From Gammaproteobacteria bacterium (GTDB taxonomy: Bacteria > Pseudomonadota > Gammaproteobacteria > SZUA-229): 32,192 nt of DNA. Below, in pieces: positions 20,404 through 29,355 of this stretch. The stretch spans positions 1 through 32,192 of the forward strand of contig JAPHSZ010000068.1 in NCBI GenBank assembly GCA_026196545.1, given 5' to 3'. The notes below the pieces were generated by a model. It was not told the DNA's origin, ran no database searches, and was given only the letters and a program-made list of their open reading frames with translations. Position numbers and translations under genes: made by a program. The first letter of the stretch is position 1; every line of letters begins with the position of its first letter.

Positions 20404-20742
20404 ATGCCACAAATAATATTTTTACCACACGAAGAGCTTTGTCCTGATGGCATGGTGATTGAAGCTGAGACAGGCAAAACTATCTGTGACGTTGCCCTGG
20501 CTAATGGCATTGAGATCGAACACGCCTGTGAGAAATCCTGTGCCTGTACCACCTGCCACGTTTACATACGCGAAGGAATGGATTCGCTCAATGAAAATTC
20601 CGAAGAAGAAGATGATATGCTCGACAAAGCCTGGGGGCTTGATCCAGATTCACGTTTGAGTTGTCAGGCGGAAGTGGGTGATGAAGACCTGGTGATAGAG
20701 ATTCCGAAGTATACGATTAATATGGTTTCGGAGAATCATTAG
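20404..20742 (+). CDS. fdx: Isc [2Fe-2S] ferredoxin
   Basis: Adrenodoxin-type ferredoxin supplying electrons for cluster assembly on IscU. The 112-residue protein has ligands C42, C48, C51 in ACEKSCACTTCHVY and C87 in RLSCQAEV, at the same numbering as E. coli Fdx, plus the extra conserved C46. It is the last gene of the contiguous isc run; iscX, normally next, is 8.4 kb away. Confidence 0.97.
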   Translation: MPQIIFLPHEELCPDGMVIEAETGKTICDVALANGIEIEHACEKSCACTTCHVYIREGMDSLNENSEEEDDMLDKAWGLDPDSRLSCQAEVGDEDLVIEIPKYTINMVSENH

Positions 20743-20756
20743 ATCGGGTTTGTTTT

Positions 20757-20784
20757 TGTAGGTGCGAATACATTCGAACCTACA
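20757..20784. repeat. Palindromic REP-like hairpin between fdx and the convergent accessory gene
   Basis: The two 13-base arms TGTAGGTGCGAAT (20757-20769) and ATTCGAACCTACA (20772-20784) pair with one mismatch around a two-base centre AC. It sits between two convergent genes and has a T-run just upstream on the plus strand. It could be a bidirectional terminator hairpin or a copy of a dispersed palindromic element; only one copy occurs in this window. Confidence 0.65.
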
Positions 20785-20791
20785 TAATTGC

Positions 20792-21151
20792 TCACATGAT
20801 TTGTTGCTTGCGGTTCATGATGACAGATTTTAAATCATCAAGTGTCTGTATCTGGTTTATGGTTGCCTGATCCACCCAAACCAAAATCTCACCATCCTCC
20901 TCAACAAAAACAGCAGGCAGTTCTGCATCACCCAATTTATATTTTTTCAAAAATTCGTCCCGATGCAAAAACTCCATCTCGGTGTCGATCTGTTCCAGAA
21001 ACTCAACCCAGTCCTGCTTGATTTTAAAGTGGCCGTGGGTGAGTACGCATAGATTGCAGCTGTAGGTTTTGGGTGAGAGTGCTTTGTGGGCGATGTCTGT
21101 GACGGTGTTGAACAGGCCGGAATCGGCGTTGTAGACAAAGATCAATTTCAT
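20792..21151 (-). CDS. Small conserved protein with CxxC-like NLC motif, function unknown
   Basis: 119 residues from ATG at 21151, with Shine-Dalgarno AAGGAG on the minus strand about eight bases upstream; a GTG one codon before is an alternative. Visible features: an opening strand LIFVYNADSGLF, cysteines in YSCNLCVLTHGHFK (CxxC near residues 32-35), WVEFLEQI, FLHRDEFLKKY, ELPAVFVEEDGEILVWVDQ. The alternation of strand and helix and the CxxC are reminiscent of a thioredoxin-like fold, but I cannot assign it. It follows the ArsR-rhodanese regulator by 32 bases in the same orientation and may be cotranscribed. Confidence 0.75.
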   Translation of the reverse strand: MKLIFVYNADSGLFNTVTDIAHKALSPKTYSCNLCVLTHGHFKIKQDWVEFLEQIDTEMEFLHRDEFLKKYKLGDAELPAVFVEEDGEILVWVDQATINQIQTLDDLKSVIMNRKQQIM

Positions 21152-21183
21152 CACGTTATCTCCTTATCAAAATTGACCATTGC

Positions 21184-21864
21184 TTAAGAGTTAAGTTTGC
21201 TGTTTGTTTTTTCTACAGGCAGGCCTGCAATTTTCCATTCGGGAAATCCGTCTTCCAGTCTGCTTGCTTTAAGACCCTGTTTGCGTAGTTTTTCTACCGC
21301 ATCGTAAGCCAGTACACAATGCGGGCCGCGGCAGTAGGCGACGATTTCCGTGTCGGAATCAAAATCAGCTAGTTGATCGTCGAGTTTGTCGAGTGGCATG
21401 TTGATTGCGCCGGGTACGTGGCCGGCATCGTATTCGAAGGCCGGGCGTACATCGATGATGGTGACCAGGCCCTGTTTTACGCGAGAGAGTAGTTCTTCGC
21501 GGGGCAGGGGTTCTAGTGAATCTTTTACGGTGAGGAAGTTGTCGATTAGTTGGTCCACTTCGGCGATATGGCGTTCGGCGACCTTGCGTTGTATTGATAG
21601 CAGTTCGATGACATCGTCACCGCTCAGGCTGTAATATACTTTCAACCCCTGTTTGCGGCTGCTGACCAGCCCCGCCTGACGCAGTTGTTGCAGGTGCTGG
21701 GAGGTGTTGGCCACGGTGATGCCTGCCAGTTTTGACAGTTCTTCGACATTGCACTCGCTCTGCGCCAGAAATTCCAGTATTTCCAGTCGGTTAGCATTGC
21801 TCATCGCCTTACCGACACGGGCAAACTGCTCGAATAGAAGTTGTTTTACGCCTTTGCTTGACAT
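21184..21864 (-). CDS. ArsR-family winged-helix regulator fused to a rhodanese domain
   Basis: 226 residues from ATG at 21864; a TTG at 21894 would add ten residues but looks less natural. Residues 8-100 are an ArsR/SmtB winged helix: VGKAMSNANRLEILEFLAQ, ELSKLAGITVANTSQHLQQLRQAGLVSSRKQG, VYYSLSGDDV. Residues 120-220 form a rhodanese domain with IIDVRPAFEYDAGHVPGAINMPL and active-site loop YCRGPHC (C178, with C183 alongside), then LRKQGLKASRLEDGFPEWKIAGLP. A third cysteine C38 lies before the recognition helix. Such fusions are known and are thought to sense sulfur species, but the ligand here is unknown. It is divergent from a six-gene operon, with a palindrome between the two (21888-21909), so it probably represses that operon and itself. 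Confidence 0.88.
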   Translation of the reverse strand: MSSKGVKQLLFEQFARVGKAMSNANRLEILEFLAQSECNVEELSKLAGITVANTSQHLQQLRQAGLVSSRKQGLKVYYSLSGDDVIELLSIQRKVAERHIAEVDQLIDNFLTVKDSLEPLPREELLSRVKQGLVTIIDVRPAFEYDAGHVPGAINMPLDKLDDQLADFDSDTEIVAYCRGPHCVLAYDAVEKLRKQGLKASRLEDGFPEWKIAGLPVEKTNSKLNS

Positions 21865-21887
21865 TGGTTTATTATCCAGTAATCTAT

Positions 21888-21930
21888 TATTCAAGTGATT
21901 AGTTGAATACTAACTAAATCCAATTATAAC
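21888..21930. promoter_or_regulatory. Candidate ArsR-type operator overlapping a divergent promoter
   Basis: A perfect inverted repeat TATTCAA (21888-21894), eight bases, TTGAATA (21903-21909) lies between the ArsR-rhodanese gene and the divergent operon. ArsR-family repressors usually bind such AT-rich palindromes. On the plus strand TTGAAT (21903-21908) and TATAAC (21925-21930) form a sigma-70-like pair with a 16-base spacer, so the repeat covers the -35 of the operon starting at 21969. Confidence 0.55.
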
Positions 21931-21968
21931 CAGATATTGATTTCATACAAGGGGTTGGTGGGGCTTGC

Positions 21969-22832
21969 ATGTCTTTATATGAATTTGTGACTGAAAATGA
22001 GAATACTATTCGTCTCAGCTTTTTTGTCGGGGTACTGGTGGTTATGGCTGTCTGGGAGATGATTGCGCCCAGACGCGCGTTGACGGTATCCAAGGCGGTG
22101 CGTTGGGCCAACAACCTCGGGCTGGTGTTTTTTAACAGTTTTATTGCCAGAATCCTGTTGCCAGCTACCGCGGTGGGTGTGGCCAAAATGGCGGCTGAAA
22201 ATGACTGGGGCCTGTTCAATCTAGTTGAAGTGCCGGTCTGGTTTGTAGTGCTGGCATCTGTCGTGATTATGGATTTTGTTATTTATATGCAGCACGTCAT
22301 GGTACATGCGGTGCCTGTGCTCTGGCGTTTGCATCGGGTGCACCACGCCGACCTCGATTATGATGTCACCACCGGTGCGCGTTTTCACACTCTGGAAATT
22401 ATTCTTTCGATGTTTATTAAATTCGCCACCATTTTATTGCTGGGGCCATCGGTGGTGGCGGTGATTATTTTTGAAGTGGTGCTCAATGCCATGGCGATGT
22501 TCAATCATGGCAATGTAGGGCTGCCAAAAATGCTGGATAGGTTTTTACGCTGGCTTATCGTGACGCCGGATATGCACCGGGTGCATCATTCGATAGAGGA
22601 TGATGAAACTAACAGCAACTTTGGTTTTAATCTTTCGTGGTGGGATCGTTTATTCGGTACCTATCGTGAACAGCCCAGGGCGGGGCATGTCGGCATGACC
22701 ATCGGCATCCATAATTTTACAGAGCCAAAACAGTGTTCATGGATAACGGGCATGCTGGCCATGCCTTTCATCGGCAAAGTAACCGACTATGCGATTAATC
22801 GTCGTCAGTGGAATAACAAAGATGAAAAATAA
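21969..22832 (+). CDS. Fatty acid hydroxylase / sterol desaturase superfamily membrane protein
   Basis: 287 residues with several membrane segments (about 15-30, 50-70, 90-108, 145-170) and the eight-histidine di-iron pattern of the superfamily: HVMVH at 109-113, HRVHH at 122-126, isolated H140 and H180, and HRVHH at 203-207. Family members insert oxygen or a double bond into lipids using O2, or, in the alkylglycerol monooxygenase branch, cleave ether lipids. The C-terminal NFGFNLSWWDRLFGTYR is also a typical motif. It is the first gene of a packed operon; its stop overlaps the next start by 11 bases. The substrate is unknown, and its link with the redox genes downstream is not obvious. Confidence 0.88.
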   Translation: MSLYEFVTENENTIRLSFFVGVLVVMAVWEMIAPRRALTVSKAVRWANNLGLVFFNSFIARILLPATAVGVAKMAAENDWGLFNLVEVPVWFVVLASVVIMDFVIYMQHVMVHAVPVLWRLHRVHHADLDYDVTTGARFHTLEIILSMFIKFATILLLGPSVVAVIIFEVVLNAMAMFNHGNVGLPKMLDRFLRWLIVTPDMHRVHHSIEDDETNSNFGFNLSWWDRLFGTYREQPRAGHVGMTIGIHNFTEPKQCSWITGMLAMPFIGKVTDYAINRRQWNNKDEK

Positions 22833-23784
22833 ATTACTACGAATCATTTTATTGCTGTTGGTAATCGCAGGTATTGCGGTGGTAGTTGTCTACCGGGATC
22901 AACTGGATGCGGCGGTGTTAGAATCATGGCTACAAGATGCAGGTGCAGCTGCACCAATAGTGTTCATGCTGGTTTATATTATTGGAACCCTGTTTTTCTT
23001 TCCCGGTTCTGTGCTCACCTTATTGGGTGGCGCCCTGTTTGGCCCGGTTATCGGTACCTTTTATAACCTGACTGCGGCTACCATCGGCGCGATGCTTTCT
23101 TTTTTAATGGCGCGCTTCATGGCCGCTGACTGGGTAGCGAATAAAACTGGTGGTTGGTTAAAACAACTGGTTAACGGTGTTGAGAATGAAGGTTGGCGTT
23201 TTGTAGCCTTTGTTCGACTGGTGCCCTTGTTTCCGTTTAATTTGCTGAACTATGCGCTGGGCCTGACGCGTATCAGCTTTACCCAATACAGCGTGGCTAC
23301 TTATATTTTTATGCTGCCCGGTGCGATTGCTTACACTTATCTTGGCTACATTGGCAAAGAAGCCGCGACGGGTGGAGAGGATCTGGTGCAGAAATCCATG
23401 ATGGCACTAGCGCTGCTGGCGGTGGTGTCATTTATTCCACGAATAATGGGCGCCTTGCGTAGAGGATCGATGTTATCTATCGATGAACTTAAACAACGTC
23501 TTGATAGTGACGAAGATGTTTTATTACTGGATGTGCGTACACCTGAAGATTATGTCGATGAACAGGGGCATGTTCCTGGCTCTAAATTAATCCCGCTGGA
23601 AGAACTGGTGCAGCGAATCGAAGAGATAGATGATTATCTTGAAAAACCGGTTGTGACCATTTGTCGAACCGATCGTAAATCGGCCAAAGCAGCACAGTTG
23701 CTCGCGCAACATGGTTTTGCCGATGTACACGTGGCGAAGATGGGGATGACGGACTGGATAAAAAACAATTATCCGACCGAGTAA
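22822..23784 (+). CDS. VTT (TVP38/DedA-like) membrane protein with C-terminal rhodanese domain
   Basis: 320 residues from ATG at 22822, overlapping the previous stop (22830-22832). An in-frame upstream start at 22789 would lie well inside the hydroxylase gene. Residues 5-25 are a hydrophobic segment; residues 45-210 form the VTT domain with the re-entrant motifs FFFPGSVLTLLGGALFGP and VRLVPLFPFNLLNYALGLTRI. Residues 218-318 form a rhodanese domain with LLLDVRTPEDY, GHVPGSKLIPLEEL and active-site loop ICRTDRKS (C281). So a sulfur-transfer domain is tethered at the membrane. Six bases separate it from the next gene. VTT proteins act in lipid scrambling or ion-dependent transport; the substrate here is unknown. 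Confidence 0.88.
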   Translation: MKNKLLRIILLLLVIAGIAVVVVYRDQLDAAVLESWLQDAGAAAPIVFMLVYIIGTLFFFPGSVLTLLGGALFGPVIGTFYNLTAATIGAMLSFLMARFMAADWVANKTGGWLKQLVNGVENEGWRFVAFVRLVPLFPFNLLNYALGLTRISFTQYSVATYIFMLPGAIAYTYLGYIGKEAATGGEDLVQKSMMALALLAVVSFIPRIMGALRRGSMLSIDELKQRLDSDEDVLLLDVRTPEDYVDEQGHVPGSKLIPLEELVQRIEEIDDYLEKPVVTICRTDRKSAKAAQLLAQHGFADVHVAKMGMTDWIKNNYPTE

Positions 23785-23790
23785 ATAATT

Positions 23791-26151
23791 ATGGCTACAG
23801 TCAATGTTGCACAACCAATATGCCACGCACCTCGTGAAGCATCTTCTGCTACACAGGATTTAATGCCGAGCCGTTATAGTATTGGTGTTCAGGTTTTGAG
23901 CATGGCGGCATTTACGCTGGCCTTTGTCGGCTGGCTGAATGAAACCTGGCTGTTCTGGTTTGAAAATCCCATCTGGCTGAATCGTTATACCGAATACTGC
24001 ATTATTCTTGGCTTCGGTATCTGGCGAATTATTGCGGAAAAAAACGCCTACACCCGCAGGCGTTTAATTATTTTAGTTGCTATGGTCACCGTGTTCTGGT
24101 GGCTGATTCCCTGGCTGTACCCCTTTTATGAACCCTATGTTGGCTTTCTCTGGGCACAACCTGTTTTTCCTTCCCTGCACGTGCCGGGTACGATTACTTT
24201 CTTTCTGGTTCTAGCGGCGGTGTTTCTGTTTGGCCGGCGTATCATCTGTGGTTTTAACTGTCCCTGTGTGGGCATTCGTGAAACCGTGGGTTTTGCTTTT
24301 CGTGATCGCACGCCTCGCTCAAACTGGACCTGGGCCCTGCGTCACACAAAATGGTTTTTCTTTATCTATTATGTCGGCATCATGGTGGTGACCCAGTACC
24401 CGCCCAATTCGTGGACGGTGAGTTTTGTCGGTGGTTTTTATCTCATCGTGGCGATGACTTATTTTGGTAGCTTTTTTATCGCGCCTATCGTTGGTAATCG
24501 TTTTTACTGTCGTTATCTGTGTCCTTATGGCGCGACCTTTGGCTTGCTCAATCATGCGGGTTTTTATGGCATCAATATGGACAGGGACAGGTGCAATGAC
24601 TGCCAGCGGTGTGAGCAGGTTTGCGACATGGGTATTCCTGTATGGAAGCAGGGTAAGTTAGCTGGTCGAGTTACCGCCATTGAGGATTGTATGGGCTGTG
24701 CCCGTTGTGTGGTTGCCTGTCCGACCGATGCGTTGGAAATTACCGATGTGCGAAATTTTTTCAATAAATCGTTGGTGCAAAATGCCAGTCACTTATTAAA
24801 ACGTGATCCCTTGAAAGATGAAGGTCGTCAACTGGCTGATTACCGTGATCCTTCTGAGCGCGTGCTTGACTGGGCTGAAATTTCTACACAGCCTTCTTTG
24901 TCAATGATCCAGCAGCAGGCCAGCCGCTGTCTTGATTGTGGCTTGCCGGGATGCAGCAATGCCTGTCCGTTAAATAATCGTATCCCTGAATGGCTGGAGC
25001 AGGTAGCGTTGGGCAATATCCAGCAGGCGGCAGAGATTGCGCATACCACCAGTAACATGCCGGAAATTTGTGGCACTTTATGTCCACAGCATCGTTTGTG
25101 TGAAGGCAGTTGTACCAAAGCCAATGAACCGGGTGGTGCAGTAACGATTGGTGCTATTGAACGCTATCTGGTCAACGAAGCACTGGATAATCAGTGGCAG
25201 CTCTTATATAAAATTAAAAATAATGCTAAATGCATTGCCGTTGTAGGCGCAGGCCCGGCGGGACTTGCCTGTGCTGATGAGCTCAACAAAGCAGGTTGTG
25301 AAGTTACGGTGTTTGACCGTAATGAGCAAGTGGGTGGCTTGATGGCAACGGGTGTGCCACCGTTCAAGCTGGATAAAGCCACATTAACACGTCGCCACAA
25401 AATGCTGGAGCAGCAGGGCGTAAAATTTCAGCTGGGTGTTGATATGAATGAAAGCAGGCTGCAGAAATTGATAGCTAGTTATGATGCAATTTTCCTGGCA
25501 ACGGGTGCGCAGACATCACGTGATTTAAAACTGCCTGGCCAGCACCTGAAAGGCGTGACAGATGCGCTGAGTTATTTGCAGCAGGTGAATACAACTAAAG
25601 ATGTCAATGCTCTGACAGGCAAGCATGTGCTGGTGATTGGTGGTGGTGATAGTGCCATTGATTGTGCTCGTTCTGCACTTCGCCAGAATGCTGAACAAGT
25701 CACCATCGCTTATCGTGGTAATGAGCAGGCAATGCGGGCAACGCCCAAAGAAAAACAGGCTGCCTGGGAAGAAGGTGTGCGCCTGCGTCTGGAATATGCA
25801 CCGGTAGAAGTTATTGGTAATGATTGTGTGACCGGTGTGCGTTTCGATAAAGTAGTCAGTGGGCAGGAAACTATTGACTGTGATCTTGTTATTTTTGCGG
25901 TGGGACAGGTGAACAAACCACAGTCATGGATGGAACAACTGAATATTAAAACTGATCGACAGGGCGTCATTATTATCGATGACAATGGTCGAACTTCAAA
26001 CTCAAAATTTTATGCTGGCGGAGATAATACTAATGGCCCTGATCTGGTGGTTACGGCTGTAGCTTCTGGTCGTAGTGCAGCAGAAGGCATTCTAAAAAGA
26101 TTCCGTCCTCACGAAAAAATCATTCGAGCCGTTTATCCTGAATCAGCATAA
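23791..26151 (+). CDS. NapH-like membrane ferredoxin fused to a GltD-like FAD/NAD(P)H oxidoreductase
   Basis: 786 residues, an unusual domain fusion. Residues 30-260 hold about five membrane segments with the NapH/CcoG-type cysteine motifs GFNCPC (C157, C159) and CRYLCPYG (C240, C244). Residues 268-310 hold two [4Fe-4S] motifs, CNDCQRCEQVC and CMGCARCVVACP. Residues 375-450 are the GltD/dihydropyrimidine-dehydrogenase N-terminal Fe-S domain (CLDCGLPGCSNACP; CGTLCPQHRLCEGSC). Residues 481-786 form the flavin module with FAD motif VVGAGPAGLA and NAD(P) motif VIGGGDSAID, ending in YAGGDNTNGPDLVVTAVASGR. All clusters and nucleotide sites look intact. This suggests electrons move between cytoplasmic NAD(P)H and the membrane, toward quinone or the periplasmic cytochromes encoded next. 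The next gene overlaps by one base. Confidence 0.92.
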   Translation: MATVNVAQPICHAPREASSATQDLMPSRYSIGVQVLSMAAFTLAFVGWLNETWLFWFENPIWLNRYTEYCIILGFGIWRIIAEKNAYTRRRLIILVAMVTVFWWLIPWLYPFYEPYVGFLWAQPVFPSLHVPGTITFFLVLAAVFLFGRRIICGFNCPCVGIRETVGFAFRDRTPRSNWTWALRHTKWFFFIYYVGIMVVTQYPPNSWTVSFVGGFYLIVAMTYFGSFFIAPIVGNRFYCRYLCPYGATFGLLNHAGFYGINMDRDRCNDCQRCEQVCDMGIPVWKQGKLAGRVTAIEDCMGCARCVVACPTDALEITDVRNFFNKSLVQNASHLLKRDPLKDEGRQLADYRDPSERVLDWAEISTQPSLSMIQQQASRCLDCGLPGCSNACPLNNRIPEWLEQVALGNIQQAAEIAHTTSNMPEICGTLCPQHRLCEGSCTKANEPGGAVTIGAIERYLVNEALDNQWQLLYKIKNNAKCIAVVGAGPAGLACADELNKAGCEVTVFDRNEQVGGLMATGVPPFKLDKATLTRRHKMLEQQGVKFQLGVDMNESRLQKLIASYDAIFLATGAQTSRDLKLPGQHLKGVTDALSYLQQVNTTKDVNALTGKHVLVIGGGDSAIDCARSALRQNAEQVTIAYRGNEQAMRATPKEKQAAWEEGVRLRLEYAPVEVIGNDCVTGVRFDKVVSGQETIDCDLVIFAVGQVNKPQSWMEQLNIKTDRQGVIIIDDNGRTSNSKFYAGGDNTNGPDLVVTAVASGRSAAEGILKRFRPHEKIIRAVYPESA

Positions 26152-26912
26152 TGAAAGTTTTATATAAAATATTGTTACTGATTTTTATTCTGAACTGTCC
26201 ATCGGTATTTGCCAGCCACAGTTATGCCGGTATGGATATGTGCGCGCTATATCCCGAAGTGATGCCGCCGGGTCTATCGCCTGATTTACTGCCCGAAGCG
26301 GGTAGTCAGGGGGCGGCACTGATGGAGGCGTACTGTACTCAGTGTCATGCCTTGCCCGGCCCCGGACGACACACCGCTGAAGAATGGCCGGACGTGCTGG
26401 ATCGTATGTTTGTATTGATGGATATGGCTGACAGGTTTGGTGGCCTGTTGGGAAATGTAAAGACGCCGTCTTTTGTTGAACGCGAACAACTGCGCGACTA
26501 TTTAATTCTGTATGCACTAAAGCCTTTAAAAATAGCACCTCAGGGCGTTGGCTATAATGCATTTGAAAACTATTGCGGCGATTGCCATGCGCTGCCCGAT
26601 ATGTCGCAATACAATCATCTCGACAAATCGAGTTTGTTAAAAAGAATGCAGCGCAATATGGAAGTGATGAAATATGCATCCCCTCCATCAGCGGTCATGA
26701 TGCAGATACAGCTTTATCTACAGGAAAATAGTAGTTCTGTAACAGCAGGAAAGGCGGCGGTAGATCAGGTTAAACCTAATGCTGACGCCGGTGATTTTAA
26801 TAACTCATTTAAATTTGGTAGCTGGCTGGCACTGGCGCCATTTTTCATTTTAGTCTTTGTTGGTTTGCTGCGCTGGTGGGGTAGTCACAAAAGGCAGGGG
26901 TGTGAGGGATAA
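26151..26912 (+). CDS. Membrane-anchored diheme cytochrome c
   Basis: 253 residues with an N-terminal signal peptide (about 1-22), two c-type heme motifs CTQCH (62-66) and CGDCH (142-146), and a C-terminal membrane helix (about 223-243) followed by a basic tail WWGSHKRQG. The heme-binding halves look related to each other (YCTQCHALPG versus YCGDCHALPD), suggesting an internal duplication. Its ATG overlaps the preceding stop as TAATG, so translation is coupled. A membrane-tethered periplasmic cytochrome fits as a carrier between the NapH-GltD protein and the multiheme proteins; this role is inferred. Confidence 0.9.
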   Translation: MKVLYKILLLIFILNCPSVFASHSYAGMDMCALYPEVMPPGLSPDLLPEAGSQGAALMEAYCTQCHALPGPGRHTAEEWPDVLDRMFVLMDMADRFGGLLGNVKTPSFVEREQLRDYLILYALKPLKIAPQGVGYNAFENYCGDCHALPDMSQYNHLDKSSLLKRMQRNMEVMKYASPPSAVMMQIQLYLQENSSSVTAGKAAVDQVKPNADAGDFNNSFKFGSWLALAPFFILVFVGLLRWWGSHKRQGCEG

Positions 26913-26916
26913 AATC

Positions 26917-28263
26917 ATGCGAACCCCTTATGTCTGGTTGACGCTTCTGGTTGCAGTAATTGCAGTACCGTCGGGTTTTTATTATGTCAACTGGAGCAAG
27001 TCGGGTGAGGGTGCTGGACTCTATTCGCGCGACTGGGTGCCTGAAGCTATTTTTGCTTACTGGAATCCAGATGATTTTTATAAGTCGGTTGAATCTGTTA
27101 AGGGTGAATTCAGCGGTGAACAGTGTGTTGAATGTCATGCAGCTGTTTCTCCTGGTATTGTTAATGACTGGCGAAAAAGTGGTCATTCAAAACCGGCCAA
27201 TAACCAGGCTGTGGTTTATTGTTCAGATTGTCATGGCAATAATCATGAAGACCTGCATTTGCCCACGCCCGATGTTTGCGGTGCCTGCCACGGTGTTCAG
27301 CATGATCAGTTTGTCGATGAAAAACGTTATGGTTTTCCTGGCCATTCACTGGCAATGGAGCGGGCCATGGATGCAAAACATTTTGCCGATAAACCCAAGG
27401 CTGAAGTAAGCGCCTGTTTGCAGTGCCACTCGGTGGCAAGTAAATGTGATTCCTGTCATACCCGGCATGTTTTTAGTGCGGCCGAAGCACGGCGACCTGA
27501 AGCCTGCATTACCTGCCACAGTGGGCCGCCGCACCCCGATGATGAAACCTATTTTCATTCCAAACACGGCCAGCTTTATCTGACCGAAGGTGAGAACTGG
27601 GACTGGTCAAAACCCTTGAGCAAGGGTAATTACCCGGCACCAACCTGTGCCTATTGTCATATGGACAATGGCAAACAGCAGGTGGCTGACAAGGCGATCT
27701 GGAAGTTTGGCCTTAAGCAGGTCAACCCACTGACTTCGGGTAATCAGGTAAGGCGTGAGCAGTGGGTGAAGCTATGCGGTGACTGTCATGAAAAAGACTG
27801 GTCGGCCGGGCAGTTAAGGCAACTGGATGTGGAGCGAAAACAGTCGTGGGCCAAATTGTACGAGGCTGAATCTGTACTCAAGAGTTTGCGCTCGGATGAG
27901 CTGATACAGCCTTCAGCAAAACAGCGTCCACCGTACCCGATGGATTCACCCGATACTTTCTTGCAATATCAACATATCGGTTTTTTTGAAGGCCAGGCTT
28001 CCGCTTTTTACAATGTCTCTCCCATAGAGCGGGATTATTTTGAGATGTGGTATTTCGATAATCTTAAATCGTACAAAGGTGCTGCACATGGTGATGCTTC
28101 TTTTGTTGAACAAGGTCAGGCAGAGATGGATGCCAGTCTTGATAGCATAAAGCAAACTGCCGAGCGTTTGCGTAGCGCGGGTGAACAAAAGTTAGATAAA
28201 GATGCACAGGGAAATATCTGGCTTGAAGGTGAATACACTGAATACAATCGGGAACACAACTGA
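26917..28263 (+). CDS. Octaheme c-type cytochrome, HAO (hydroxylamine oxidoreductase) family-like
   Basis: 448 residues from ATG at 26917, which has GAGGGAT upstream; the longer open frame from 26857 overlaps the previous gene and is less likely. Residues 5-25 are an uncleaved-looking membrane anchor. Eight CxxCH motifs start at residues 70, 102, 121, 167, 177, 197, 244 and 287. The run CDSCHTRHVFSAAEARRPEA, then CITCHSG, then SKHG, plus APTCAYCHM and later SPIERDYFEMWYFDNLKSYKGAAHG, matches the signature order of HAO-type octaheme proteins. Family members oxidise hydroxylamine or hydrazine, or reduce nitrite. At 448 residues it is shorter than Nitrosomonas HAO. I cannot tell whether the P460 cross-linking tyrosine exists, so the substrate and direction are open. 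Confidence 0.87.
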   Translation: MRTPYVWLTLLVAVIAVPSGFYYVNWSKSGEGAGLYSRDWVPEAIFAYWNPDDFYKSVESVKGEFSGEQCVECHAAVSPGIVNDWRKSGHSKPANNQAVVYCSDCHGNNHEDLHLPTPDVCGACHGVQHDQFVDEKRYGFPGHSLAMERAMDAKHFADKPKAEVSACLQCHSVASKCDSCHTRHVFSAAEARRPEACITCHSGPPHPDDETYFHSKHGQLYLTEGENWDWSKPLSKGNYPAPTCAYCHMDNGKQQVADKAIWKFGLKQVNPLTSGNQVRREQWVKLCGDCHEKDWSAGQLRQLDVERKQSWAKLYEAESVLKSLRSDELIQPSAKQRPPYPMDSPDTFLQYQHIGFFEGQASAFYNVSPIERDYFEMWYFDNLKSYKGAAHGDASFVEQGQAEMDASLDSIKQTAERLRSAGEQKLDKDAQGNIWLEGEYTEYNREHN

Positions 28264-29069
28264 TGATTAATCGAGTGCTCTTTTTCTGTTTTATAGTGAT
28301 GGCTTTCAGTGGTCATGCAGTGAGTACTGATAATTTGGTGTTAGGTATTTTTAATAATGAGCAATGCCTTCAATGCCATGAGAAAACAGATGGTGATCTG
28401 ATAGGGGGCTGGCGAAACAGCGCTCATGCTAGTTCTGAACCGGTTATTGATTGTGTGGCCTGCCATGGAACAGAGCATGAAAGTGTGGCGGCCAGGGCAC
28501 GTCAGGATCAGGCATGTATTGAATGCCATAGGGGTGCAAAAGGTCCGGTGGTGCACAGTTACTCAACTTCCAAGCACGGTGTCCTGATGAAAATTCAGGT
28601 CGGTCAGCAGGGCTGGAGCAAACCACTGTCAATGGCTAATTACCGGGTGCCAGGCTGTGCCTATTGTCATATGCATGCGGGTGAGCATGATGTCAGTATC
28701 AGTGTGCGTCATGATATTATGCTGAAATCTGAGTCGGTTCAGGACAAGATGAGGGCGGTATGTCAGGATTGTCATTCATCACGTTACATCAGCCGATTGC
28801 TGGAAAATGGCGAGGCCATGCTGGAGATAGCGCGTAAAAAGGTTCGTGAAGCGGATAATTTGATCAAACAGGCAGAGGCTAAATTCAGCGAGCAACAGTT
28901 GGCACCGGTAAAGCAGCAAAGGCTGAAAATGCAGCAACACCTGCTTAATGTGGCTCTGGGGGCTGGCCATCAGTCACCCGATTACCAGTGGTGGCATGGG
29001 CAACCCGCGCTGGATGGTGATTTGTTGCGGATCAAGGGTTTTATCAGTGAGCTGCCAACGATTGAGTAA
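28263..29069 (+). CDS. Pentaheme c-type cytochrome, shortened relative of the octaheme protein
   Basis: 268 residues with a signal peptide (about 1-20) and five CxxCH motifs starting at residues 35, 64, 85, 132 and 167. Local matches to the octaheme neighbour are clear: EQCLQCH...GGWRNSAH to its heme 1, CHGTEHE to heme 2, CIECH...STSKHG to heme 6, WSKPLS..NY...CAYCHM to heme 7, and CQDCH to heme 8. It thus looks like an octaheme ancestor that lost three hemes in the middle. The C-terminus GAGHQSPDYQWWHGQPALDGD resembles the ending of HAO-family proteins. It overlaps the previous stop by one base and is last in the operon. It is probably a periplasmic electron carrier or partner subunit. Confidence 0.88.
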   Translation: MINRVLFFCFIVMAFSGHAVSTDNLVLGIFNNEQCLQCHEKTDGDLIGGWRNSAHASSEPVIDCVACHGTEHESVAARARQDQACIECHRGAKGPVVHSYSTSKHGVLMKIQVGQQGWSKPLSMANYRVPGCAYCHMHAGEHDVSISVRHDIMLKSESVQDKMRAVCQDCHSSRYISRLLENGEAMLEIARKKVREADNLIKQAEAKFSEQQLAPVKQQRLKMQQHLLNVALGAGHQSPDYQWWHGQPALDGDLLRIKGFISELPTIE

Positions 29070-29113: not shown

Positions 29114-29154
29114 TTGATTTTTCTTTAAAAATCTTGGGTTTATGAGGTGTGTGT

Positions 29155-29355
29155 ATGGCTCTTAAGTGGACTGATTCGCTGGATATTGCTATAGAACTGG
29201 ATGAAAAATATCCGGATGTTGATCCAATGCATATCAATTTTGTAGATCTACGCGACTGGGTTTGCCAGCTCGATGATTTTGATGATCATCCCGATCATTC
29301 GGGTGAGCGTATCCTTGAAGCCATCCAGATGGCCTGGATTGAGGAAAAAAGCTGA
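29155..29355 (+). CDS. iscX: IscX, Fe-S assembly regulator
   Basis: Small acidic protein, 66 residues from ATG at 29155 with Shine-Dalgarno GAGGTG (29144-29149). Marks are [38 protein letters not shown] and the tail [12 protein letters not shown]. It binds IscS and iron and modulates cluster synthesis. It normally follows fdx directly; here 8.4 kb of other genes intervene, so it probably needs its own promoter or read-through from the cytochrome operon. Confidence 0.97.

Follow-up and report, generated by a model that had tools for sequence, protein, structure and literature searches.

Between fdx and iscX, two genes of the isc operon, a 32,192-nucleotide contig of a Gammaproteobacteria bacterium (lineage SZUA-229; GenBank contig JAPHSZ010000068.1, part of a 2.67 Mb assembly in 237 contigs) carries a set of redox genes that is a conserved module and no local accident. 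We refer to the whole stretch (G000:C44:1-32192) as the window and to the gene set as the cassette. Its core is six genes encoding an ArsR-rhodanese regulator, an FA_hydroxylase-family membrane protein (FA-hydroxylase), a NapH protein, an octaheme cytochrome of the hydroxylamine oxidoreductase (HAO) family (OCC), a VTT-rhodanese fusion, and a pentaheme cytochrome (PCC). The cassette is probably tied to sulfur; what exactly it acts on, and whether its chemistry is reductive, are less well supported. Our tentative reading is that it may encode a periplasmic oxidoreductase, wired to the membrane and under sulfane-sulfur control, with which Dsr-type sulfur oxidisers would reduce a sulfur species, and the changed catalytic residues of OCC suggest that a fold familiar from nitrogen enzymes has taken on new work connected with sulfur.

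An earlier note, made from the letters of the window, had named the genes between fdx and iscX. All of these reading frames are open, with coordinates about as that note gave them, Pfam and NCBIfam matches back the domain assignments of the cassette genes, and the heme counts of eight, five and two are confirmed. Two of the genes lie on the minus strand, and the remaining six are tightly packed on the plus strand:

20404..20742, plus strand: fdx, ISC 2Fe-2S ferredoxin, left flank, outside the cassette (NCBIfam fdx_isc above cut-off).
20792..21154, minus strand: sCxxC, small protein with a CNLC motif (C33 and C36 invariant in 9 sequences).
21184..21864, minus strand: ArsR-rhodanese regulator (HTH_5 and Rhodanese over cut-off).
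21888..21909, no strand: probable (putative) operator of the regulator, TATTCAA-N8-TTGAATA, in the divergent promoter region (perfect match).
21969..22832, plus strand: FA-hydroxylase (PF04116, 99.7 bits), kept in the cassette across classes.
22822..23784, plus strand: fusion of a DedA-type (VTT) membrane domain with rhodanese (both PF09335 and PF00581 score over cut-off), kept across classes.
23791..26151, plus strand: NapH-GltD fusion of 786 residues (NapH and gltD families; motif and hydropathy scan).
26151..26912, plus strand: diheme c-type cytochrome, lineage-specific (two CxxCH; hydrophobic stretches 3-21 and 222-240).
26917..28263, plus strand: OCC, octaheme HAO-family cytochrome with an N-terminal hydrophobic anchor (8 CxxCH; matches to PDB 4n4j, 6t5e, 6h5l and 1fgj; fold search).
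28263..29069, plus strand: PCC, pentaheme cytochrome with a signal peptide (5 CxxCH; profile comparison with OCC; HAO matches).
29149..29355, plus strand: iscX, right flank, outside the cassette (NCBIfam iscX above cut-off).

The junctions of the six plus-strand genes are, in order, -11, +6, -1, +4 and -1 bases. Overlaps or gaps of at most six bases, as first described, therefore hold for all junctions except that of FA-hydroxylase with VTT-rhodanese, where the overlap is 11 bases with the VTT start at ATG 22822 and 44 bases with a start at 22789.

A NapH-GltD scan of the named genomes gave 55 loci, with full-length relatives at 54 named loci. OCC is encoded at 38 of the 55, nearly always with PCC; most of these loci also have the regulator, FA-hydroxylase and VTT-rhodanese, arranged in one and the same order. 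The cassette is found again in dozens of genomes of beta- and gammaproteobacteria, named carriers being Thiodiazotropha, Sulfuricaulis, Thiobacillus denitrificans, Sulfuritalea, Thiohalobacter and Methylophaga metagenome-assembled genomes (MAGs). The earlier note had made its proposal of a membrane-to-multiheme redox module depend on co-occurrence of the genes in other genomes; the set lies in conserved order at dozens of loci, as a coherent, recurring combination of NapH-GltD and multiheme cytochromes. NapH-GltD without OCC occurs at L041, L043 and L061 (gammaproteobacterial) and at L055, L056, L059 and L062 (beta- or proteobacterial), and several of the loci lacking OCC stop at a contig edge. 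By our reading of the open reading frames, the diheme gene at L043 and L061 is followed by a phosphate-permease-like gene, a methyltransferase and ArsS. Of the 54 genomes in the window's family, 10 have OCC and 13 the NapH part; both lie on one contig in all 10 OCC genomes, and the loci of the three genomes with a NapH part but no OCC (G006, G008, G456) end at contig edges. In a draw of 398 genomes from the phylum, cassette-type OCCs were found in 28 genomes outside the window's family. The distribution is patchy, and the cassette has probably moved horizontally; a tblastn search of plasmids returned distant homologues only, the best being the true HaoA of Ruegeria.

Loci from what appears to be another class of Pseudomonadota encode a divergent regulator followed by FA-hydroxylase, NapH, OCC, VTT-rhodanese and PCC. 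NapH is here a protein of ~400 residues with no GltD part, these loci have no diheme match, and a DsrE-like gene, its family assigned by reading the sequence, lies near nine of them. Because this layout lacks both the GltD fusion and the diheme gene, the latter being present in only part of the carriers, we regard the two as lineage features added to the six-gene core; the component set first listed is thus a coherent module, two parts of which are not universal. Among individual loci, NapH-GltD is split in two in a Thiodiazotropha MAG (L067:8001-10249), and a sponge-type MAG (L064:8001-9691) gives only partial matches to NapH-GltD and to OCC, through decay or assembly error in either case. 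A five-CxxCH multiheme cytochrome lies near the cassette at L024:7444-8403 and L044:12872-14203, and another multiheme protein at L059:3526-4749; these had no Pfam or NCBIfam match where scanned and are cytochrome c554-like by eye only.

OCC matches HAO structures across nearly its entire length in a profile search of the PDB (4n4j, E 2e-86; 1fgj, E 4e-60). The label HAO-like given in the earlier note is apt as regards this homology and the eight heme motifs, but it does not extend to the active site, which is remodelled. The Asp267-His268 pair of NeHAO aligns with Pro205-His206 of OCC, and Pro205 is found in 38 of 38 OCCs of the first set and in every other-class cassette OCC read, whereas the aspartate is kept in KsHOX, KsHAOr, HDH, HAO, Ruegeria HaoA and other non-cassette octaheme homologues. 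Within the surrounding GPxHPD motif region, 6h5l reads GPDHPD and cassette OCCs GPPHPD. At the position of NeHAO Tyr467, OCC has no tyrosine and a two-residue deletion. In the tree, cassette OCCs form one clade (support 95/90), and the position of 6h5l, on a long branch, is unsure. OCC keeps all eight proximal heme histidines together with seven histidines that align with HAO distal ligands (a distal assignment taken from the alignment), and so heme 4 is likely five-coordinate and the site likely still catalytic. Among the most conserved parts of OCC are the segment around His206 and residues 359-391, which line the active site in HAO. An AlphaFold model of low confidence (pLDDT 57, no hemes) matches the HAO fold and serves as fold support only. 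A distant second octaheme-like protein, ~27% identical to OCC, is encoded away from the cassette in some of its carriers, at L155 (G102), G153:C6 and G455:C308, and the aspartate is kept in L155.

The five CxxCH motifs of PCC agree with the pentaheme cytochrome originally proposed, yet PCC is not an independent component. Profile comparison with OCC gives a probability of 99.95 (E 8e-38), with the two proteins aligning from heme 1 to near the C-terminus save for one gap spanning hemes 3, 4 and 5; PDB matches and a fold search agree with this relation. PCC is thus a shortened OCC that lacks hemes 3, 4 (the catalytic heme) and 5. Since the catalytic heme is absent, PCC is probably an electron-transfer partner. 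It carries a conserved block of its own, GHQSPDYQWWHGQPALDGD, and its AlphaFold model, of modest quality (pLDDT 68, no hemes), is likewise used as fold support only.

The remaining electron-transfer proteins could connect these cytochromes to the membrane. The NapH part of the fusion has four hydrophobic helices, two CX3CP motifs and two ferredoxin motifs (residues 153, 240, 268, 300), and is joined to a GltD-type Fe-S/FAD/NAD(P) part; it has an NCBIfam NapH/MauN match, its score against TIGR02163 (NapH) being 71 bits, below the NCBIfam cut-off of 213 bits. NapG, NapA and NapB were found neither in the operon nor among recurring neighbours. The diheme protein has two CxxCH motifs, an N-terminal signal and a C-terminal membrane anchor. 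Fusions of VTT and rhodanese domains have been noted in the literature, with no known role (PMC10127716).

The regulator's reading frame reaches TTG 21894, and its likely start is ATG 21864. The rhodanese loop holds two cysteines, Cys188 and Cys193 in the numbering that begins at the TTG, both of them present in every one of 50 regulators compared, which, with the rhodanese fusion itself, supports the proposal of a sulfur-type regulator over the redox genes. The ArsR domain has no conserved cysteine (Cys48 is present in 2/50), and sensing of the BigR/SqrR type by this domain is rejected, as its two sensor cysteines are missing. The perfect palindrome TATTCAA-N8-TTGAATA lies upstream of the likely ATG, at a distance of ~24 bases. 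Similar palindromes, with at most 3 mismatches and within 150 bp of the regulator start, occur at 50 of 57 loci, some of which are duplicate copies of the same contig, compared with 39 sites elsewhere in 849 kb. The isc loci of G001 and G003, where there is no regulator, lack the palindrome, as do the dsr and ArsS loci of the window's own genome. These patterns point to the palindrome as the probable operator of the regulator.

Where the earlier note left the substrate as a nitrogen or sulfur compound, genome content and neighbouring genes favour sulfur over nitrogen. The dsrA gene is present in 27 of the 28 OCC genomes and in 25 of 369 others outside the window's family (Fisher p ~2e-26), in tests that ignore phylogeny; the 28 genomes come from 8 families, none of which is without a dsrA-bearing member. 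Genes of the cd1 family (NirS-type) are found in 17/28 and 34/369, respectively, leaving 11 OCC genomes with none. Among dsrA genomes the OCC-cd1 difference vanishes (16/27 vs 16/25), whereas among cd1 genomes dsrA still separates the two groups (16/17 vs 16/34, p=0.0016). The window's own genome has NirS-family genes and a dsrABEFHC-MKLJOP-like operon of oxidative type (names beyond dsrA assigned by reading). Neighbours of the cassette are often TauE, DsrE2, SQR-III-like and NifS-like genes, and no nitrogen genes recur in the neighbourhoods read. The sulfur-tied role is favoured because of the dsrA association, these neighbours, and the targets of known sulfane-sulfur ArsR repressors. At two loci (L040:3958-5121 and L055:2901-3977) a NifS-like cysteine desulfurase adjoins cassette genes.

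In the mechanism that we propose, sulfane sulfur would modify the Cys188/Cys193 pair of the ArsR-fused rhodanese, forming a persulfide, and the modified regulator would leave TATTCAA-N8-TTGAATA, turning the operon on. Electrons would enter from NAD(P)H at the GltD part where it is fused, or from quinol where NapH stands alone, and would cross the membrane via the Fe-S clusters of NapH to the diheme protein and PCC, which may act as wires. Heme 4 of OCC could then reduce a periplasmic sulfur species, whether polysulfide, S0-derived persulfide or a sulfur oxyanion, and VTT-rhodanese may handle sulfane sulfur at the membrane, feeding or protecting the cytoplasmic Dsr pathway. Two rhodanese fusions within the core count for sulfur, as do the invariant cysteine pair of the regulator and the loss of both the HAO catalytic aspartate and the tyrosine from OCC, and the reductive direction is favoured because NapH and GltD families usually carry electrons from quinol or NAD(P)H. 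In its most specific form, in which an HAO-fold enzyme without the family's Asp/Tyr chemistry draws on NAD(P)H or quinol to reduce sulfur in the periplasm, thereby activating it, whether stored or external, for Dsr under a rhodanese-ArsR switch, the proposal is doubtful.

Several observations weigh against a sulfur reductase. No characterised enzyme of the HAO clade is known to act on anything but nitrogen compounds; the model assigns no function to FA-hydroxylase; and the genome statistics, as noted, take no account of phylogeny. Genomes with dsr and without the cassette are common, and therefore the cassette is accessory. Thiosulfate-type soxB is present in only 1 of 28 OCC genomes; linkage to Sox was tested on this basis and rejected, so that the cassette is no part of Sox oxidation.

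The main rival, though an unlikely one, is that OCC reduces nitrogen oxides in the manner of KsHAOr or a reverse HAO, acting on nitrite, NO or hydroxylamine with NAD(P)H or quinol as power source and merely expressed under sulfur oxidation, for example to detoxify NO or hydroxylamine in sulfide-driven denitrification. Such a role would suit the place of OCC in the HAO clade, its loss of the tyrosine as in KsHAOr, and the cd1-type genes of the window's own genome and 17 further carriers. KsHAOr converts nitrite to NO in one study (PMC12485887), and weak activity on nitrite is on record for a sulfur oxidiser's octaheme cytochrome (PMC6449678). Yet KsHAOr, whose own role is disputed (PMC11897245), keeps the aspartate that is proline in every cassette OCC, 11 of the 28 carriers have no cd1 gene, no OCC-cd1 link is left within dsrA genomes, and the neighbourhoods read contain no recurring nitrogen genes.

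Electrons could also flow in reverse, with OCC oxidising a low-potential periplasmic compound such as sulfite or persulfide and NapH-GltD passing electrons to quinone or NAD(P)+ in support of autotrophy. This is improbable: HAO and HDH are indeed dehydrogenases, the hosts are largely sulfur lithotrophs, and DsrL, a GltD relative, is tied to NAD(P) in the Dsr pathway, but the NapH proteins known so far supply periplasmic reductases, the HAO residues of oxidation (Asp, Tyr) are gone from OCC, and the other class has no GltD. With the catalytic heme gone from PCC and two catalytic residues from OCC, both proteins might instead form an electron conduit with no chemistry of its own, leading for instance to an extracellular or outer-membrane acceptor; the strong conservation of the His206 region and residues 359-391, as expected for an active site, and the lack of an outer-membrane partner in the operon make this rather less probable still. 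Finally, the ArsR name and nearby genes for ArsS and TIGR04283/TIGR04282 glycosyltransferases could be taken to indicate arsenic or arsenosugar-like metabolism, ArsS lying within ~8 kb at about ten loci, some of which also have a methyltransferase or a phosphate-permease-like gene. We consider this highly improbable, given that ArsS is over cut-off in 19 of 30 relatives, mostly cassette-free, that ArsS and the glycosyltransferases of the window's own genome lie on another contig (G000:C82:8431-10685, L078) without the palindrome, and that the ArsR domain has no conserved cysteine. The loci with ArsS (TIGR04167) near the cassette are L026, L032, L035, L040, L041, L043, L046, L054, L055 and L061; most of them have the glycosyltransferases beside the cassette, and ArsS and the glycosyltransferases are also common in cassette-free relatives.

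The location of the cassette in the isc operon is probably incidental and without functional meaning, because most carriers hold it elsewhere. In the broader locus set, isc genes stand beside the cassette only at the window locus and in close relatives (L015, L018/G006). In G002 and G004, both of the same genus, the locus reads fdx, small CxxC gene, iscX, rlmN, with the full cassette on other contigs, and the isc locus is therefore rejected as a functional partner. The statement that the operon normally runs fdx-iscX is accordingly nearly right: no cassette intervenes in these genomes, but the small CxxC gene does. As this gene lies between fdx and iscX with or without the cassette in the genus, it is an isc-locus resident, and so a neighbour and probably no member of the cassette; its product has no Pfam or NCBIfam match. 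The isc loci of G001 and G003 have FA-hydroxylase and VTT-rhodanese without regulator, NapH-GltD or cytochromes, and the regulator and redox genes thus come and go at this site. In G001 (L171:6960-8914) the space from fdx to the small CxxC gene holds three further genes, the largest HupE-type-like by eye, and therefore the isc gap collects insertions. The small CxxC protein is also encoded beside ArsS and glycosyltransferase genes in L046 (16319-16660).

We found no published description of the cassette, including the combination of NapH, GltD and an octaheme cytochrome, in the open-access literature, in keeping with the earlier note, which knew of no described system with this set. None of the domains is new in itself; what appears to be new is their combination, together with the Asp-to-Pro clade, the pentaheme protein derived from OCC and the conserved probable operator. 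Periplasmic sulfur handling in Dsr-type sulfur oxidisers is, to our knowledge, a step still poorly defined, and a sulfur-regulated, Dsr-tied HAO clade with a remodelled site is a candidate for its electron-driven part. Labelling such genes as HAO in metagenomes would misassign nitrogen metabolism, and the conserved probable operator makes the regulon directly testable.

Comparison with known systems places the cassette apart from each of them. NeHAO and KsHOX share with OCC the fold, the eight heme motifs and the aligned distal histidines, but their Asp267 and Tyr467 are not conserved in cassette OCCs and their operon context is wholly different. Anammox HAOr (Kustc0458, PDB 6h5l) is, like OCC, an HAO-family octaheme protein without the cross-linking tyrosine, shares the GPxHPD region, and has a small heme partner, Kustc0457, as does the cassette; unlike OCC, it keeps the catalytic aspartate where OCC has proline, and it has no known NapH, rhodanese or HAO-derived pentaheme partner. 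BOGUAY_0691, the orange octaheme cytochrome of a Guaymas Beggiatoaceae, with nitrite and hydroxylamine activity (PMC6449678), is, compared by description only, a sulfur-oxidiser octaheme cytochrome like OCC, though its neighbours, unlike those of the cassette, are napAB and NADH dehydrogenase genes. NapH of periplasmic nitrate reductase has the same four helices, two CX3CP and two ferredoxin motifs as cassette NapH, which differs in being fused to GltD in the beta- and gammaproteobacterial loci and in having no NapA, NapB or NapG in its operon. The GltD part resembles DsrL/GltD-type NAD(P)H oxidoreductases as an FAD/NAD(P) flavoprotein tied to sulfur metabolism, but unlike DsrL it is membrane-anchored via NapH, tied to periplasmic hemes and not encoded with DsrAB. 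Lastly, sHdrR, SqrR and BigR are sulfane-sulfur ArsR repressors encoded beside TauE and rhodanese genes (PMC12423496), and the cassette regulator likewise combines an ArsR fold with a position beside sulfur genes; in place of their ArsR-domain sensor cysteine pair, however, it has a C-terminal rhodanese with an invariant cysteine pair.

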